Assembly (NCBI GenBank): GCA_937928425.1
Contig: CALFVL010000065.1
Coordinates: 1-34,084 of the forward strand
Direction: 5' to 3'
From: an uncultured Verrucomicrobiales bacterium
Lineage (GTDB): Bacteria > Verrucomicrobiota > Verrucomicrobiia > Verrucomicrobiales > Akkermansiaceae
Length of the DNA stretch: 34,084 nt
This document shows, in pieces, positions 19,866-30,107 of the stretch. The first letter of the stretch is position 1. Each line of letters starts with the position of its first letter. Under the pieces are notes generated by a model. The model saw nothing but the letters and a program-made list of their open reading frames with translations. It did not search any database and had not been told where the DNA came from. A program made the position numbers and the translations under genes.

Positions 19866-21497
19866 CTATCGTACTTTATGGATGAGCGCCTCGGCGCAGC
19901 GGCGGCCATCTAATGCTGCTGAGACAATGCCACCCGCATAGCCCGCACCTTCCCCACAAGGGTAAAGTCCCTCTACCTCGGGATGCTGTAAATCGTCACC
20001 TCTTGGAATCCGTAAGGGCGAGCTGGTCCGCGTCTCAAAGCCGATTAAAAGAGCATCTGGCCCCGTATAACCTCGGATCATTTTTCCGAATTTACGTAAA
20101 CCACCAGCCAGACGGTCACTAATCTCTCGCGGTAAGATCTCATCCAGCCTTACCGAGTTTAAGCCCGGAAAGTAGCTCGTCTTTGGCAATTTACGCGAAA
20201 CTTTTCCGGCCAAAAAATCACCCACTTTTTGCCCCGGTGCCACCTGCCCACCACCACCAGCTTTCTTCGCCAATCGCTCCACATGCTTCTGATAGCGGAT
20301 CCCGCAGAGCACATCATCTCCTCCGAATCCCCGCACATCATCCGGCTCCACTCCCACCACCATCCCACTATTGGCAAAGGGTGAGTCGCGTCGTGAGAGA
20401 CTCATCCCATTCACCACCACCTCATCATTCATAGTAGCAGCAGGCACCACAAAACCTCCCGGACACATGCAAAAAGAATGCACACTGCGCCCCTTCACCT
20501 GCGTAGCGAGACGGTAGCGAGACGCTGGTAAATTACGCCCACGTTCCTCTCCTTCACCTAAGTGATACTGCACTCGGTCGATGAGTGGCTGAGGGTGCTC
20601 TATCCGCACCCCCACGGCAAAGGGTTTAGCCTCTAAGAGCACATTCTGCTTATGCAGTAACTCGTAAATATCTCGGGCGGAGTGCCCTGTTGCTAAGATC
20701 ACGCCCTTCCCTCGGAACTCCCGCCCATCCGCAGTTCTCACCCCCAGCATCTTCCCTCCCGCCATGAGGAATTCATTGACCTTCGCCCCAAAGTGCACCT
20801 CTCCTCCGGACTCCCGTAGGGACTCGCGCATCGCCATCACCACTTTCGGGAGCAGGTTAGATCCAATATGCGGGTGGGCCTCTACTAGAATTTTTCGGGG
20901 AGCACCGTGGGCCACCAGCGTACGGTAAATTTCCGCCACTGGTCCTCGCTTCGTCGCCCGAGTGTAGAGCTTCCCATCAGAGAAAGTTCCGGCACCACCT
21001 TCCCCAAAGCAGTAGTTCGACTCCTCGATCACACGACCTTCTTTTAAAATCGGCCCTAGATCGAAGCGCCTCGCCGAGGCATCCTTCCCCCGTTCTAGTA
21101 ACACTGGTTTGTAACCGAGTTCTAGACAACGCAGTGCCGCAAACATCCCCGCCGGACCACAGCCTACGATTACGATCTCTTCCGCGGCCATCCCGCTCTT
21201 CTTCAGAATTCCCCCCTCCCATCTCAGCTCCGCCTCTTCTGGCAATTTCTCATCCACCCCTACCTCGAACCTTAAGCGGAACCTCACGGGCCGTTTCCGT
21301 GCGTCGAGCGAGCGCTTTAGAAGGCGAAAGCCTGTCACCCGTTCTGCTTTCACCCGTAATTTTTTAGTGATTCGTAAAGCCCATCCCCGCTCATCAGCAG
21401 CCTCACTAGGGCTCAACACCAACTCAACTGTTTCCAAAGCCATCTCGTGAAACGCAATACGCCCTTCCTCCTCATCAACCAAGCTCAATGATTTCAT
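19866..21497 (-). CDS. FAD-dependent dehydrogenase of the COG2509 type
   Basis: 543 residues. An N-terminal domain of about 100 residues (LRITKKLRVKAERVTGFRLL, KRSLDARKRP) is typical of this group and precedes the FAD-binding Rossmann motif IVIVGCGPAGMFAALRCLE (108-126). Other landmarks are the GEGGAGTFSDGKLYTR motif, an ATGHSARDIYELL stretch and the C-terminal FAD loop GLYPCGEGAGYAGGIVSAALDG. Substrate and partner are unknown for these proteins. The gene is first in a two-gene unit with the cupin. Its start lies 36 bases from the LexA-like box shared with divergent imuA, so SOS control is possible but unproven. Confidence 0.88.
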   Translation of the reverse strand: MKSLSLVDEEEGRIAFHEMALETVELVLSPSEAADERGWALRITKKLRVKAERVTGFRLLKRSLDARKRPVRFRLRFEVGVDEKLPEEAELRWEGGILKKSGMAAEEIVIVGCGPAGMFAALRCLELGYKPVLLERGKDASARRFDLGPILKEGRVIEESNYCFGEGGAGTFSDGKLYTRATKRGPVAEIYRTLVAHGAPRKILVEAHPHIGSNLLPKVVMAMRESLRESGGEVHFGAKVNEFLMAGGKMLGVRTADGREFRGKGVILATGHSARDIYELLHKQNVLLEAKPFAVGVRIEHPQPLIDRVQYHLGEGEERGRNLPASRYRLATQVKGRSVHSFCMCPGGFVVPAATMNDEVVVNGMSLSRRDSPFANSGMVVGVEPDDVRGFGGDDVLCGIRYQKHVERLAKKAGGGGQVAPGQKVGDFLAGKVSRKLPKTSYFPGLNSVRLDEILPREISDRLAGGLRKFGKMIRGYTGPDALLIGFETRTSSPLRIPRGDDLQHPEVEGLYPCGEGAGYAGGIVSAALDGRRCAEALIHKVR

Positions 21498-21512
21498 TCC
21501 CTAATTGTTCGC

Positions 21513-21541
21513 TTGCTCACACCTTAAATAAGTGTTCTAAT
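21513..21541 (+). promoter_or_regulatory. Probable imuA-imuB promoter
   Basis: TTGCTC (21513-21518) and TCTAAT (21536-21541) are spaced by 17 bases. The -10 differs from TATAAT at one position. The LexA-like box covers the -10, as expected for a repressed SOS promoter. Transcription would start near 21548. Confidence 0.5.
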
Positions 21542-21546
21542 GAACA
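21533..21546. promoter_or_regulatory. LexA (SOS) box in front of imuA-imuB
   Basis: The sequence TGTTCTAATGAACA is a perfect TGTTC-N4-GAACA palindrome, the LexA-binding motif reported for Verrucomicrobia. It sits between the divergent flavoprotein gene and imuA, over a plausible -10 element, in front of genes that are SOS-regulated in other phyla. I found no second perfect copy in the window. Confidence 0.8.
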
Positions 21547-21550
21547 GAAC

Positions 21551-22156
21551 TTGAGCATTCTTCAAATTCAACAATTGCGCCGTGAACTTCGCGAGAAATT
21601 TCCTGCTGCTCATCGTGCTCCTCATCCGCCAGCCTCTCTTCCACCTGCGCCACTCACCTTCGCCCCCGGCCACCTGAGCGAGATGATCTCCCCTCATCAA
21701 TCATCCGGTGCCTCTCTCGTCATATCTAAACTCCTTGATAAAAAACGTGAGACTCCCTTAGTCCTCATCGATGGCCGTGACAGCTTCGACCCCGCCTCTT
21801 ATGGGAATGAAAAATGCCATAATCTGATCTGGATTCGCTGCTCAAAGTCCGAACAAGCTATCCAAGCTGCGGACCTCCTTCTCCGAGATGGGAATCTTCC
21901 CTTCATCATCCTAGATCTTCACCTCGTCGCCGAGCGTGAACTTCGCCGCATCCCGCACGCGCTCTGGCAGCGACTTAAAGTTCATGCCCGTCATTCGGGT
22001 AGCACCATGCTCGCGATCACTCCACATGCCCTCGTCCCCACTCCTCATCGCCGACTCACTTTAAGCGGTCACTTCTCTCTCGCTCAGCTAGAACTCGAAG
22101 AACCCTCCCTACAACTCCATCACAGCCTAGAACACCAGCACACTCATAAAGCATGA
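21551..22156 (+). CDS. imuA: ImuA-like protein, RecA-related accessory factor of translesion synthesis
   Basis: About 201 residues from a TTG at 21551 (21575 TTG is an alternative). A frame open from 21488 would place the LexA box inside the coding region, so I prefer the later start. The N-terminus has the ImuA-type LRRELREKFPAAHR. The core resembles a degraded RecA fold: a VLIDG strand, LIWIRCSKSEQAIQAADLLLRDG and a Walker-B-like FIILDL, but no Walker A (GxxxxGKT). Without a Walker A it is unlikely to be an ATPase of the RecA kind. It overlaps imuB by 4 bases (ATGA), the classic imuA-imuB arrangement. ImuA links ImuB and the DnaE2 polymerase in mutagenic repair. Confidence 0.8.
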   Translation: MSILQIQQLRRELREKFPAAHRAPHPPASLPPAPLTFAPGHLSEMISPHQSSGASLVISKLLDKKRETPLVLIDGRDSFDPASYGNEKCHNLIWIRCSKSEQAIQAADLLLRDGNLPFIILDLHLVAERELRRIPHALWQRLKVHARHSGSTMLAITPHALVPTPHRRLTLSGHFSLAQLELEEPSLQLHHSLEHQHTHKA

Positions 22157-23616
22157 GCTACGCCGCCCTCCACTTCCATGACCTCCCGCTACACTGTCTC
22201 CTCTCTCGCCGTGGCACCCCCTCCACCCAGCCCGCCGCCCTCCTCGCTCAACGAGGATCCGAAAAAGTTCAGATCATCGCAGTAAATCAGGCTGCTCGCC
22301 AGCAGCACATTCACCCCGGCCTTCATCCCACCCGCGCCATCGCTCGTCACCTTGACCTCCTCATCCTCGAGCGTGACCTTGCCGCCGAGAAATCAGCTCA
22401 GTCCGAGGCACTGGCTTTTGTCGACTCCCTCGTTCCTGACTTCGAGCTAACCACCCCAGAGACCTTCCTTCTCGACCTCTCCACACTCCTCATGGCCTCA
22501 GAAGAAGACTGGTCTACTCACACTCTTGCCGCTGCTAGTTATCTTGATCTACCTCTCCAAATCGGGCTCGGTCCCACTCCCGACCTTGCCCACCTCGCCT
22601 CCCTCACTAAAGAAAACTCCCCCCTTACCCTAAAACTCGAAGACCTTGCCCGGGCTCGTTTGGAAAACTTCCCCCTTTCCCAACTTAGCACCTTGCAGCT
22701 CTGGGGCCTGCAATGCCTCGCTGACCTTAGCCGGCTCCCTCGCCAAGGACTCGCCGAGCGCCTCGGGCCAGACTTAGCCCATCTGCATGACGTCCTCCTC
22801 GCTAAAAAACACCGCCTTCTCACCCTTCACCGCCCTAAAAAACACTACCAGATCCAGCACAGCTTCACTCCTCCGATCGAGACCCACGCGCCTCTTCTCT
22901 TTATCGCAAAACGCCTCCTGCAAACCCTCTGCAACCGCCTCGCACAGCAGCAGCGTGCAGCCGCAGAATTACACCTTACTCTCGCCTTTAATAATGGAGC
23001 CGCACACAGCCGTAAGCTCACCCTCTCCGAGCCCACCCTCTCACCAGACATTCTTCTACGTAGCCTCCACACCCACCTCGATACCCTCCAAGCTCCCGCT
23101 CCCACTGAGGAATTCCACCTCCAACTCATCCCCGCTCTCCCTCACCATGCTCAGCACCAACTCTTTTCCCGCAGTCTCAAAGACCCGAATCAATTCACCG
23201 AAACCATCCGCCGTCTCTCCGCCTTCGTCGGGCCTCAGAACCTTGGCATCCCTCACCAGCGTGACACCCACTGCCCAGACTCCTTCCAGCTCTCTCCCAT
23301 CCTCCCAGATTTCAAAACACCCACCGTCCCAGAGCTGGACCCCGTAAGCAATCTGCCCCTTAAACGTCAGCGCCCGCCCATCTCGGTAAGCGTTGCATCA
23401 GAAAAGCGAGGGGCATACCTACACCCCCTCGCTCTCCTGAGTGGCCCTCACCAAGGCCCTATCCATAAAACTCGCGGTCCTTTCCCTCTTTCAGGATCTT
23501 GGTGGCAAGACAGCTGGCAGCAAGCACAGTGGGACATCGAACTGCCAGACTCCCTCCTCCTGCAACTCACTTACACTCCACCAAAAAATTGGCAGCTCAC
23601 TGGGATTTATGCCTAA
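22153..23616 (+). CDS. imuB: ImuB, catalytically degenerate Y-family polymerase-like protein
   Basis: 487 residues, the clamp-binding adaptor of damage-induced mutagenesis. The overall Y-family order is visible, but the acidic active-site residues are missing: the first motif reads LHFHDLPLHCLL in place of DCDAFFA, and the SxDE motif region reads TTPETFLLDLSTL. That is normal for ImuB. A clamp-binding-like AQHQLFSRS lies near residue 337, where ImuB proteins usually have a QxxLF motif, followed by the family's GIPHQRDTHCPDSF stretch. The DnaE2 (ImuC) polymerase that normally completes the cassette is not next to it, since rpoD follows. The sequence is rich in His, Leu and Pro. Confidence 0.85.
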   Translation: MSYAALHFHDLPLHCLLSRRGTPSTQPAALLAQRGSEKVQIIAVNQAARQQHIHPGLHPTRAIARHLDLLILERDLAAEKSAQSEALAFVDSLVPDFELTTPETFLLDLSTLLMASEEDWSTHTLAAASYLDLPLQIGLGPTPDLAHLASLTKENSPLTLKLEDLARARLENFPLSQLSTLQLWGLQCLADLSRLPRQGLAERLGPDLAHLHDVLLAKKHRLLTLHRPKKHYQIQHSFTPPIETHAPLLFIAKRLLQTLCNRLAQQQRAAAELHLTLAFNNGAAHSRKLTLSEPTLSPDILLRSLHTHLDTLQAPAPTEEFHLQLIPALPHHAQHQLFSRSLKDPNQFTETIRRLSAFVGPQNLGIPHQRDTHCPDSFQLSPILPDFKTPTVPELDPVSNLPLKRQRPPISVSVASEKRGAYLHPLALLSGPHQGPIHKTRGPFPLSGSWWQDSWQQAQWDIELPDSLLLQLTYTPPKNWQLTGIYA

Positions 23617-23766: not shown

Positions 23767-23809
23767 AGGTGAGGTGTGCCCTGCATTCCACAACCCCGTT
23801 CTAACAATC

Positions 23810-25690
23810 ATGGCAAAAAAGAAAACGACCGCTAAGAAAGCTGCTAAAAAGGCACCTGCCAAGAAAGCCGCGAAGAAAGCTCCCGCCAAAAAAAATACAG
23901 CGAAGAAAGCCGCCGTAAAAAAGACTGCCAGTAAAAAAGCGGTCAAAAAAACTGATAGCAAAAAAAAGGTCACCACTAAGAAAAGCGCTGCCAAAAAAGC
24001 GGTAAAGAAAGCTGCCAAAAAAACCGCAGCCACTAAAAAAGTCGCTCAGGTAAAGAGTGAAGAGGCGCCAAAGAAAACCAGCAAGGGGAAAAAACTTAAG
24101 AACCGCATCGACACACCCGAGATTCAGGAAAAAATCCGTGAACTCATCAAACTCGCCAAAGAGCAGGAATACCTGACCTATGATGACATCCATGAGATTC
24201 TCCCGAATAACCTCGTCGAGGAAGAAGACATCACCGCCATCCTTGACCGCCTCCGCCAGATGGAGTTCGACATCATTGACGCCTCAGAAGTCGACCGGAT
24301 TAAGGATAAGAAAAAAAGCGATATTGATGGCGAAGAGGAGCCTAAGGACCAGAAGCTCGACATCCTCGATGATCCTGTCCGGATGTATCTTAAGCAAATG
24401 GGACAGGTCCCCCTCCTCACTCGTGAGCAGGAGGTAGAAATTTCAAAACGCATCGAAGACGCCGAAATCGAGGTCCAGAAATATCTTCACCTCTTCGGAT
24501 TTACCGCCAAAGGATACCTCGCTCTCGCAGACAAGCTCATGCGCGGAAAAGAGCGCTTTGACCGCGTCATCCTAGATAAAAAGATCGAAAGCCGGGAACG
24601 CTACATGAAGGCCCTCCCTAAGCTCTGTGATCAGGTCCGTGGACTCCACGAGGAAACCACTGACATCATCAAGAAACTCTCCGCGAAAGCACCACGCGGT
24701 AAGAAGAAACTGGAGACTACCCTCTCGAAAAACCTCCAGAGCATAGCCCGTCTATACAGCCGCTTTTTCTTCAAACAAAAAGTCATCGAAGACTTCTGTG
24801 ACGTCGTAGGCGAGTATCAGGAAAAAATCTGGAAATACTCACGGAAAAAGAGCGATGAATCAGAAATCGCGATCAAAGAACTCTCACTAGAATCTTGGCA
24901 TAATGTCGAAGAGTTTGAGAAAACGAATCGTGACCTCCGCCTGTGGATGCGAAATGCCCTCAAGGCAAAAACCGAAATGGTCGAGGCCAACTTACGTCTC
25001 GTCATCTCAATCGCGAAAAAATACACCAATCGCGGACTCTCATTCCTAGACCTCATTCAGGAAGGAAATATGGGACTCATGAAGGCGGTCGAAAAATTCG
25101 AATACCGTCGTGGCTATAAATTCTCCACCTACGCCACATGGTGGATCCGCCAGGCCATCACCCGCTCCATCGCAGATCAGGCCCGCACCATCCGTATTCC
25201 GGTGCACATGATCGAGACCATCAATAAACTCATGCGGGTGCAGAAACAGCTCGTCCAAGAGTATGGTCGTGAACCCACTCCTGATGAAATCGCCGAGGAG
25301 ATCCACCTCCCTGTGGAGCGCGTCCGCGCCGTGCTAAAAATGGCGCAACAGCCCATCTCTCTCCAAGCTCCCGTGGGTGACTCAGATGACACCTCATTCG
25401 GAGACTTCATCGAGGATAAATCTGCGGAGAACCCTATGGAAGAAGCAGGCTTCGCCATGCTGAAGGATAAGATCATCGAGGTTCTCGATACTCTCACCGA
25501 GCGGGAACGCGAGGTCCTAGAGCAGCGCTTCGGGCTGAAGGATGGCTACTCCCGCACGCTGGAGGAAGTGGGACGCCAGTTCCAAGTCACCCGTGAACGT
25601 ATCCGCCAGATCGAGGCTAAGGCCCTCCGTAAAATGCGCCACCCCACCCGGATCCGTAAGCTCGAGGGCTTCATCGAACTCCCGATGTAA
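23810..25690 (+). CDS. rpoD: Primary sigma-70 factor RpoD with histone-H1-like N-terminal tail
   Basis: 626 residues from ATG at 23810. Residues 2-95 are a low-complexity Lys/Ala tail made of [11 protein letters not shown] repeats, like bacterial histone-H1-like proteins. The normal sigma factor follows: region 1.1-like (about 103-165, [19 protein letters not shown]), region 1.2 ([21 protein letters not shown]), region 2 ([47 protein letters not shown]), region 3 and region 4 ([35 protein letters not shown]). All promoter-recognition parts look intact. The tail would give the factor strong positive charge and could bind DNA or RNA. An in-frame earlier ATG at 23774 overlaps the -10 region and is unlikely. 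Confidence 0.95.
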
Positions 25691-27087: not shown

Positions 27088-28095
27088 ATGCTCCTCGCCA
27101 TCGAGTCCTCTTGTGATGAAACTGCCGTCGCCATTATCCGCCGTGGCCAGAACGGACCAGAGCTCCTGAGTTCTCTCATTTCCTCACAGATTGACATCCA
27201 CCGGGAATTCGGTGGAGTGGTCCCCGAGGTCGCCTGCCGTAATCACGCACAGCGTATCCGTCCCCTCGTCGAGCAAGCACTTCGTGACGCCGCACTCACT
27301 CTGGAAGAAATCGATGTCTTTGCTGCCACTCGTGGGCCCGGCCTCGCATCCTCGCTGCTCGTCGGCCTCGCCTACGCAAAGGGTCTAGCACTCGCCAGTG
27401 GGAAACCCTTCTACGGGATCAACCACATGGAGGGGCACCTTCTCTCTCCCTTCCTTGCGGATGGCCAAATTCCACCCCACCTTGGCCTCATCGTCTCAGG
27501 AGGGCACACCCTTCTCATCGACGTCCAAGCCTACGGAGATTATTCCCTCATCGGGCGCACGATCGATGATGCCGCAGGGGAAGCATTTGATAAAGTGGGC
27601 CGTATGCTCTCACTGCCCTATCCGGGTGGACCAGAGATCGAGAAATTGGCCCGTTCTGGCGACCCCAAAGCATTCGCCTTTCCACGCGCCCAGCTAAAAG
27701 ACGCCCCTTTCGACTTCTCCTTTTCTGGGCTAAAAACCTCCGTTCTCTACCAGATCCAAAAGCTCAAGAATCCCCAAGACCATCTCGCTGACCTCTGCGC
27801 CTCTTTTCAAGCCTCCGTCATCGACTCCCTCGTGACGAAGTCTCTTAAAGCAGCCCAGAAACGGGGTCACCAAATCATCACCCTCTCTGGCGGCGTGGCT
27901 TGCAACCGCCGCTTACAAGACTGCCTCTCCGAAGCCGCTGATCAAAAAGGACTACAGATCAGACTCACCCCGCCCGCCCTCACTACCGATAACGCTGGGA
28001 TGATTGCCTTCGCCGCACTCCTCGCCTCTGAGAAGCGCCCACCAGATGATCTCGCCACCGGAATAGACCCGAATCTATCCCTCGCAAAGCCCTAG
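27088..28095 (+). CDS. tsaD: tRNA N6-threonylcarbamoyladenosine transferase TsaD
   Basis: Transfers threonylcarbamoyl to A37 of ANN-decoding tRNAs, giving t6A, together with TsaB and TsaE. It has 335 residues, the normal size. Landmarks are the start MLLAIESSCDETAVAI, the metal ligands H113 and H117 in YGINHMEGHLLSP, LIVSGGHTLL, DDAAGEAFDKVGRMLSLPYPGGP, FDFSFSGLKTSV, LSGGVACNRRL and the final TDNAGMIAFAAL, with all expected motifs present. It is read directly after the UbiA-type gene (2-base gap) and converges on the RsmA-Nudix gene. The partially visible tcdA 5 kb away acts on the same modified nucleoside. Confidence 0.97.
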   Translation: MLLAIESSCDETAVAIIRRGQNGPELLSSLISSQIDIHREFGGVVPEVACRNHAQRIRPLVEQALRDAALTLEEIDVFAATRGPGLASSLLVGLAYAKGLALASGKPFYGINHMEGHLLSPFLADGQIPPHLGLIVSGGHTLLIDVQAYGDYSLIGRTIDDAAGEAFDKVGRMLSLPYPGGPEIEKLARSGDPKAFAFPRAQLKDAPFDFSFSGLKTSVLYQIQKLKNPQDHLADLCASFQASVIDSLVTKSLKAAQKRGHQIITLSGGVACNRRLQDCLSEAADQKGLQIRLTPPALTTDNAGMIAFAALLASEKRPPDDLATGIDPNLSLAKP

Positions 28096-28119: not shown

Positions 28120-29475
28120 TTACTCTTCAGCAAAGCGTGCGGGATTGACCTCCTTCCAGAGCTTCCAACAGGCCAAGAAACCGGGGGCGAAATCCTCAGG
28201 CACCCCAGTCACCCACTGCTCAATCTGGGCCATCGTAAACCACTCACCATACTCCACCTCTACGCAGGGAAAGCGGATCTTCCCCTGCGCTAAGGTTGCG
28301 TAAAGTTTCACATGCTCCCAGCCCGTATTGGAGTGGGCGCCCAGTTTCCCCACCTCTTTTAAATCATGCTGGACCAGCCCTAATTCCTCCTCCAGCTCCC
28401 GCTGAGCGCAGAGCTCATACTCCTCTCCGGCATCGACATGCCCTGCCGCGCTAGAGTCCCACAATCCGGGGCACTTGTCTTTCAAGCGGGACCGCTTTTG
28501 TAAAAAAATCTCCCCTTTTTGGTTCAGGACGAAGAGATGAACCGCTCGATGTTTTAGCCCCTCACGGTGGATCACTTCCCGCTTCTCACTTCCCAGCACG
28601 ACATCATTCTCATCCACCACGGTGAGTAACTCATCAGCACCCTGACCTTCCTCCTTCTCAAAGAGTGGATCAGCTTCCCGGGTCAAAGCCACCCAATCCT
28701 CCAAACTCAGTTCCTCTGCCCGTGCCGTCGCCAAAAAGCCCAACTTCTGACTCACTGTCTCCCAGTCGATTTCAGCAGGAAGGTTCTTCCGTAACTGCTT
28801 ACGCCGCTGCGCGAATCCTCGGCGGACCAGCTCGTCAAACAAGCGCCGATCATGCACCGGTAATTCTGCCTGCCGAGGCTCCAAGGTCATCACGGTAGAG
28901 TCGATTAAAGGGCGCGGGATAAAGCAGCTCGGCGGTACCACCTTCACCGGTTCTCCCTGCCATTCACACTGCATTCTAAGGGTCAATACCCCATAATCTT
29001 TACAACGCGGACCTGCTAAGATCCGATCGATCATTTCCTTCTGCAACATCAAGACCGCACGAATAAAGGGTGATGGCCCTTTCAGGAAATTTCGTAAAAT
29101 GGCCCCTCCTGCTGAGTAGGGTAAATTGCCTAATAACTTCACCTGTCTGTGGGCAAAGAAAGGGCGCACATCCAGACGCACTGCATCATGATTCAGCACC
29201 GTCACTTCAGAACGATCTGCGAAGCGTCTCTGAAGATACTCGGCGAGCCTGCGATCATACTCCACGAGAATGATTTTAGACACCCGCCCGATGAGATGCT
29301 CAGTCAGTGCTCCTGTCCCCGGCCCCACCTCCACCACGGTATCTGCAGGATCTAAATGCAACTGCTCCACGATCCACCGCGCAGTATTTTCATCGACGAG
29401 GAAGTTTTGCCCTAGCCGCTTAGAGGGCACCACATCGACTTCAGCTAAAATTTCCGTTAATTCAGTGGCCGTCAC
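28120..29475 (-). CDS. rsmA: RsmA (KsgA) rRNA dimethyltransferase fused to a Nudix hydrolase
   Basis: A single 451-residue frame. Residues 1-270 are a complete RsmA/KsgA: SKRLGQNFLVDE (18-29), the SAM motif VEVGPGTGALTEHL (48-61), NLPY (117-120) and the C-terminal helical FAQRRKQLRKNL. This enzyme dimethylates two adenines near the 3' end of 16S rRNA. Residues 280-451 are a Nudix domain of the YfcD/IPP-isomerase-like group (HRAVHLFVLNQKGEIFLQKRS), with an intact Nudix box from G345 to L367 (GX5EX7REUXEEXGU). Both halves look functional and no stop or frameshift separates them. KsgA alone is normally about 270 residues. The start is GTG at 29475 with GAAAGGA 5 bases ahead, one of the few good ribosome-binding sites here. 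Confidence 0.93.
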   Translation of the reverse strand: MTATELTEILAEVDVVPSKRLGQNFLVDENTARWIVEQLHLDPADTVVEVGPGTGALTEHLIGRVSKIILVEYDRRLAEYLQRRFADRSEVTVLNHDAVRLDVRPFFAHRQVKLLGNLPYSAGGAILRNFLKGPSPFIRAVLMLQKEMIDRILAGPRCKDYGVLTLRMQCEWQGEPVKVVPPSCFIPRPLIDSTVMTLEPRQAELPVHDRRLFDELVRRGFAQRRKQLRKNLPAEIDWETVSQKLGFLATARAEELSLEDWVALTREADPLFEKEEGQGADELLTVVDENDVVLGSEKREVIHREGLKHRAVHLFVLNQKGEIFLQKRSRLKDKCPGLWDSSAAGHVDAGEEYELCAQRELEEELGLVQHDLKEVGKLGAHSNTGWEHVKLYATLAQGKIRFPCVEVEYGEWFTMAQIEQWVTGVPEDFAPGFLACWKLWKEVNPARFAEE

Positions 29476-29528: not shown

Positions 29529-30107
29529 GTGACTCTGGCCACCGTCATCACCCTCATTCGCCTCGCGCTCGTCCCGGTTTTTGCCTGGGCTGCCATCGCT
29601 TACGGACACACCGTCGAGGCAGGATCACCAGAGGACTCACGGCGCTGGCTCGCGGTGACGATCTACACGCTTGCCTCTGTTCTGGATGGCCTAGATGGCT
29701 GGGTGGCACGCACTTTCAACCAGAAGTCCCTCACCGGGGCCATCCTAGACCCCCTGACTGATAAGGCCCTCCTCATGACCGGTCTATTAACCACCACCTT
29801 CGTCAACTGGGGGAATGACTGGCACCTCCCCATCTGGTTCATCATCCTCGTCATTGCACGGGACTTAGAAATTATCATCGGGATTTTCATCCTCTACTAC
29901 CTCAATCGCCGGGTCCCCATTCAGCCACTCACGATAGGAAAAATCTGCACCGTCACGCAAATGATCGCGATGGGCTGGATCATGCTTCACTTCACGGCCA
30001 TTCCACTCATCATTCCCACCGTCATCGCCGCCGTCTTCACCCTCTGGTCGGCCTATGAATACTACATGATGGGCTACCGGCTCCTACCCAGAAACTCGCG
30101 TTCCTAG
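29529..30107 (+). CDS. pgsA: CDP-diacylglycerol-glycerol-3-phosphate 3-phosphatidyltransferase
   Basis: Makes phosphatidylglycerophosphate, the committed step of phosphatidylglycerol synthesis, in the inner membrane. It has 192 residues with about 4-6 membrane segments. The CDP-alcohol phosphotransferase motif D-G-x2-D-G-x2-A-R-x8-G-x3-D-x3-D is complete between D53 and D78 (DGLDGWVAR then ILDPLTD). The N-terminal VITLIRLALVP is typical of PgsA and separates it from other CDP-alcohol enzymes. The start is GTG at 29529; it is divergent from the RsmA-Nudix gene with a 53-base gap. Confidence 0.9.
   Translation: MTLATVITLIRLALVPVFAWAAIAYGHTVEAGSPEDSRRWLAVTIYTLASVLDGLDGWVARTFNQKSLTGAILDPLTDKALLMTGLLTTTFVNWGNDWHLPIWFIILVIARDLEIIIGIFILYYLNRRVPIQPLTIGKICTVTQMIAMGWIMLHFTAIPLIIPTVIAAVFTLWSAYEYYMMGYRLLPRNSRS

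Follow-up and report, generated by a model that had tools for sequence, protein, structure and literature searches.

Few rRNA-modifying enzymes are conserved across all domains of life; KsgA (RsmA) is one of them, and it normally stands alone. Why, then, does an uncultured Verrucomicrobiales bacterium encode it in one protein with a Nudix hydrolase? The initial annotation of the window, i.e., the whole analysed stretch of 34,084 nucleotides, reported such a fusion and knew of no described role for it. We find that the fusion is real, conserved, and apparently recurrent, and that its parts are ordinary. In the open-access literature, the fused architecture was found once, as a table row: protein 34 of the Akkermansia-like fosmid SMG 25, with 450 aa and listed as 'ksgA, NUDIX hydrolase', has the same architecture, shares 91% identity with an Akkermansia sp. 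CAG:344 protein, and goes undiscussed in that study (PMC3861447, Table 1). No study of why the two enzymes are joined and no described role were found in this literature, in agreement with the initial annotation.

One reading frame with two enzyme halves

The gene lies on the minus strand of the window (positions 28120-29475) as one unbroken frame of 451 codons, which begins with GTG at 29475 and ends with the stop at 28120-28122; the plus strand of the same interval is closed by many stops. The features of the locus are as follows.

28120..29475, minus strand: fused ksgA-nudix gene, 451 aa, GTG start, frame shared with relatives
28672..29475, minus strand: KsgA/RsmA 16S rRNA (A1518/A1519) dimethyltransferase half, predicted, residues 1-268 (TIGR00755 and 6ift matches)
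29311..29331, minus strand: SAM-binding motif I EVGPGTG, residues 49-55 (from sequence; E49, G51, and G53 invariant)
29116..29127, minus strand: catalytic NLPY motif, residues 117-120 (from sequence; L-P-Y invariant, N nearly so)
28636..28671, minus strand: linker, residues 269-280 (lowest between-domain model confidence, pLDDT about 61)
28141..28635, minus strand: predicted Nudix hydrolase half, YfcD-like, residues 281-445 (PF00293; YfcD 2fkb match)
28375..28443, minus strand: Nudix box GX5EX7REUXEEXGU, residues 345-367 (from sequence; 59/60 fused and 23/23 unfused loci)
27088..28095, plus strand: tsaD-like neighbour gene, convergent with and separate from the fused gene
29529..30107, plus strand: pgsA-like CDP-alcohol phosphatidyltransferase neighbour gene, divergent from and separate from the fused gene

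The pgsA-like gene is linked to the fused gene throughout the genus. Elsewhere in the window, inspection by eye points to two consecutive genes resembling ImuA and ImuB, the mutasome pair (21488-23616, plus strand), and to a primary sigma-70 factor (23774-25690, plus strand) whose N-terminal ~90 residues consist of lysine/alanine-rich repeats like a histone H1 tail.

Pfam matches cover residues 19-267 (RrnaAD, E 1.8e-52) and 308-418 (NUDIX, E 1.1e-18), which bears out the annotation of a complete 16S rRNA dimethyltransferase and an intact Nudix hydrolase in one frame. The SAM motif and NLPY, which had been described as intact, were both found in the sequence, and their key columns are invariant or nearly so in an alignment of 33 sequences. 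The KsgA half scores 225.5 bits against TIGR00755 (ksgA; cut-off 171), and the fold including the C-terminal domain matches B. subtilis KsgA 6ift (Z 30.6, 273 aligned, 2.6 A). Identity as an Erm 23S rRNA methyltransferase was rejected, with 150.4 bits against NF000499 at a cut-off of 212. The protein is like known KsgA/RsmA (TIGR00755; B. subtilis 6ifs/6ift, E. coli 1qyr) in its SAM motif, NLPY, and C-terminal domain, but whereas these have about 250-300 residues, it adds a second enzyme of about 180 residues at the C-terminus.

In the source genome, a draft of 168 contigs that is about 97% complete, the fused gene is alone in encoding an RrnaAD protein that passes the cut-off in a profile search and must therefore, if the assembly is taken as is, supply 16S dimethylation. 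Across a large part of Verrucomicrobiia, Akkermansia included, the fused protein is the only 16S dimethylase. The GGAA loop of helix 45, the target of KsgA, was found in the genome's 16S rRNA (GGGGAACCTGCGGCTGGAACA, one mismatch to the pattern; none in the control), and the KsgA half is predicted to dimethylate A1518 and A1519 of this helix. The 3' end of the 16S rRNA (G000:C166:4287-4307) reads GGCTGGAACA instead of the common GGYTGGATCA. KsgA serves as a checkpoint in 30S assembly, acting on late pre-30S particles close to the 3' end of the rRNA in a late phase of maturation (PMC9032327).

Distribution and history of the fusion

The source assembly is a draft in 168 contigs and the two genes are separate in some relatives, so that an assembly or frame artefact joining two genes had to be considered. 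The identical unbroken frame recurs in dozens of independent genomes, including single-contig ones, and the stop or frameshift between the halves that would have pointed to an artefact was absent from them, which makes this explanation next to inconceivable. The fused query is matched by 57 of 58 relatives at 46-88% identity, nearly always over its full length in one open, stop-free frame, with a few matches split or cut by contig ends. A genome search for the same domain order, as proposed with the initial annotation, gave a full-length fused match in 49 of 141 Verrucomicrobiia genomes (count of rows), some single-contig. Named records that carry the fusion are labelled Akkermansia, other Akkermansiaceae, Prosthecobacter, Terrimicrobiaceae, and Chthoniobacterales. 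Each of 60 fused loci yields a single frame on ORF extraction, in which 5-21 residues separate the domain matches. Within the genus, dN/dS of the KsgA half is 0.02-0.08, and the Nudix half has 0.01-0.12 nonsynonymous versus 0.18-0.85 synonymous changes per site, the latter mostly saturated; this low nonsynonymous change means that both halves are under purifying selection. Single-contig genomes of only 0.9 Mb in family f19 (L049 in G073; also G082) keep the whole fusion despite genome reduction, with an intact Nudix box in L049.

Outside the class, KsgA is alone in every other phylum sampled, in line with its annotation as normally a stand-alone protein. A wider set of KsgA loci from the genome collection comprised 67 further loci (L104-L170), 64 of them without a Verrucomicrobia label, and among the matches listed none of these 64 had a Nudix gene of this kind beside KsgA in the fetched flanks. 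For other classes of the same phylum, no full-length fused match was listed, and matches were to one half only. Rarity of the KsgA-Nudix linkage outside the class is well supported, if not proven.

Other families of the class have ksgA and Nudix as separate, adjacent genes on the same strand, in head-to-tail order with ksgA first, and the junctions of four loci (L062, L064, L066, L103) are 4-base ATGA overlaps. One locus is a near-fusion, in which ksgA and the Nudix gene share a frame and just one in-frame TAG plus a few further codons lie between them (L061:3980-5389). The fusion is a class-level feature with unfused, operon-like forms and not an oddity of one genome. In still other class genomes the Nudix gene is unlinked from ksgA, and no recurrent neighbours of these unlinked genes were seen with a simple gene caller that performs poorly in G+C-rich DNA. 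Of the 52 class genomes in the phylum sample, 51 have the Nudix gene in one copy, fused or not (row count). G163 is the sole genome of the 52 without this Nudix gene, and the fused query matches weakly there (best 1.3e-11).

How often did the fusion arise? In a careful KsgA tree of 72 rows, the fused rows require five changes, at least four of them by starred branches and one being that of the doubtful locus L100. A single clade of all fused rows, L100 included, was rejected by an AU test (lnL difference 150, p 8e-61), a result to be read with caution, as the tree contains long branches and gain is not distinguished from loss. Fusion occurs in a large Verrucomicrobiales/Chthoniobacterales group, in family f7, and in a single member of family f34, whose counterpart in the same family has the genes unfused and overlapping by ATGA (G166 vs G139); L054 sits on a long branch with an unsure place in the tree. 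The Nudix tree, which is weakly resolved, likewise sets f7 and f34 apart from the others. Since a single fused clade is rejected, at least three fusions are probable, and it is simplest to read them as arising from an ancestral tandem, although change counts alone do not separate gain from loss and the alternative history of one fusion followed by several splits might still apply. The Terrimicrobiaceae locus L100 was set aside as a candidate natural split and looks like an insertion or misassembly. At L100:5501-6901, G+C falls from about 0.53 to 0.27 past the end of KsgA, near the contig end, and GATGAAAATAGGTAA-like repeats stand in place of the Nudix domain.

Identity and substrate clues of the Nudix half

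The Nudix box of the fused protein (GHVDAGEEYELCAQRELEEELGL, residues 345-367) fits GX5EX7REUXEEXGU exactly, and the box is intact in 59 of 60 fused loci, the remaining one ending at a contig edge, as well as in all 23 unfused loci. Among the four Nudix proteins of the source genome, the fused one is the only match to the IPP isomerase model, under its cut-off. YfcD, DR_0079, and IPP isomerase are the closest sequence relatives of the Nudix half, with MTH1 and RNA decappers further off. With 84.6 bits against YfcD NF011922 (cut-off 152), it is related to YfcD and not filed as such; the closest structure among the matches listed is YfcD 2fkb (Z 24.3, 160 aligned, 1.6 A, 30% identity), and as these matches are mostly to KsgA, the Nudix half is judged from this single YfcD row plus sequence. 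Unlike the fused domain of the window, YfcD (2fkb, NF011922) is a free protein. This is also the case for DR_0079 of Deinococcus radiodurans (1q27/2o5f), whose Nudix domain is related to the window half with moderate sequence similarity (E 1.7e-8) and has Asn instead of the last Gly of its Nudix box.

Some Nudix enzymes such as RppH and NUDT16 decap RNA, and KsgA works near the rRNA 3' end in late maturation. KsgA might hence bring the Nudix half to pre-30S particles, where it would strip precursor rRNA or bound RNA of a 5' phosphate or cap. We consider this quite improbable, as the closest relatives are YfcD, DR_0079, and IPP isomerase instead of RNA decappers, and unlinked copies of the Nudix gene persist.

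The similarity to IPP isomerases offers a further reading, namely that the C-terminal half is an isopentenyl-diphosphate isomerase by which ribosome assembly is tied to isoprenoid synthesis. The half matches TIGR02150 at 62-65 bits and keeps the His residues common to IPP isomerases. However, this is far under the cut-off of 105.8 bits, and the VCGH of IPP isomerase 3hyq aligns with AAGH of the Nudix half, so that the catalytic Cys is replaced by Ala; at this position, 56 of the 60 fused copies have Ala and three have Ser. In addition, the full hydrolase-type Nudix box of the fused protein is absent from IPP isomerases (PMC5389931). An isomerase is on these grounds very improbable, and the coupling to prenyl-diphosphate metabolism that the initial annotation had suggested is disfavoured. 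Hydrolysis rather than isomerisation is expected because the full Nudix box is kept and the catalytic Cys is replaced by Ala or Ser. The Nudix half is predicted to be a hydrolase of a nucleoside-diphosphate-linked substrate, and its conserved residues do not indicate a particular one. In the literature, E. coli YfcD is listed with function undetermined and DR_0079 as a pyrimidine nucleotide di/triphosphatase (PMC5389931).

Shared production or dedicated pair

The explanation we favour, with moderate confidence, is that two enzymes, each predicted to be active, were first produced together as neighbours and then fused repeatedly, with tethering being secondary. The N-terminal half would be the cell's only KsgA/RsmA and would dimethylate both helix-45 adenosines at a late stage of 30S assembly. 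The C-terminal half would be a catalytically competent, YfcD-like Nudix enzyme that cleaves a soluble substrate of the nucleoside-diphosphate type, most likely for housekeeping of the nucleotide pool. In the ancestor, ksgA and the Nudix gene would have lain side by side, probably transcribed together and with their translation coupled through the 4-base overlaps. We propose that they could fuse repeatedly since making both proteins in equal amounts was already an advantage or did no harm. A single copy of the Nudix gene is the rule with and without fusion, and its box is intact in a 0.9 Mb genome; the gene therefore appears to serve a task for which the tether is not required. Its persistence as a separate, unlinked single copy likewise argues that this task is independent of KsgA. 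That the same partner was joined repeatedly argues for co-production being favoured or at least tolerated, but could equally mean direct functional coupling. Co-transcription, the direction of change from tandem to fusion, and co-production rather than allostery as the link between both predicted activities are what we infer from these patterns.

Direct coupling would make the two halves a dedicated pair, in which the Nudix half either removes dimethyladenosine nucleotides of rRNA turnover or reads a nucleotide signal that gates 30S assembly. Taken together, we regard this as possible but doubtful. In the first form, the Nudix half clears the waste of the methylase by hydrolysing N6,N6-dimethyladenosine di- or triphosphates released by rRNA degradation and thereby blocks their re-use. 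This would give a direct reason for pairing KsgA with a Nudix enzyme, and has a precedent in human MTH1, a Nudix enzyme active on N6-methyl-dATP; the authors of that work suggest a possible activity on N6-methylated adenine nucleotides for other bacterial Nudix enzymes as well (PMC7152754). Yet the modification is also made outside the class, by bacteria that lack such a Nudix neighbour, and the Nudix half is closer to YfcD and to DR_0079, the pyrimidine nucleotide phosphohydrolase (PMC5389931), than to MTH1, which leaves waste clearance unlikely.

In the second form, which takes up the sensing of a nucleotide pool put forward in the initial annotation, the Nudix half acts as a sensor for a signal nucleotide, or removes it, and adjusts binding or release of KsgA at the pre-30S particle, which would couple ribosome assembly to nutrition. 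In the E. coli ksgA-apaG-apaH operon, KsgA is co-produced with ApaH, an Ap4A hydrolase and, as such, a nucleotide pyrophosphohydrolase. The E. coli products are separate proteins, however, and ApaH is not a Nudix enzyme, which makes this an analogy at most. Sensing would further be consistent with the role of KsgA as a 30S assembly checkpoint (PMC9032327) and with the predicted structure of the window protein (pLDDT 92.8, pTM 0.90), where the confident single arrangement of the two domains suggests that they are packed and perhaps communicate in this lineage. In contrast, the model of the independent f7 fusion (pLDDT 93.0, pTM 0.65) has no confident domain arrangement; this difference is a hint only, given that the underlying alignments differ in make-up. 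Moreover, the Nudix gene is unlinked from ksgA in many members of the class. Sensing is in our judgement about as unlikely as waste clearance. If the halves did form a dedicated pair of either form, this would reveal a new kind of ribosome-assembly factor and a function for the orphan YfcD-like group.

The linkage to KsgA provides a genome-context handle on the function of this orphan Nudix group. In the class of Akkermansia muciniphila, one and the same Nudix hydrolase has been joined to KsgA, apparently on more than one occasion, whereas KsgA is alone in the other phyla sampled. This poses a question for the culturable A. muciniphila, i.e., whether its ribosome assembly is linked to nucleotide metabolism or whether the two enzymes merely share their production.
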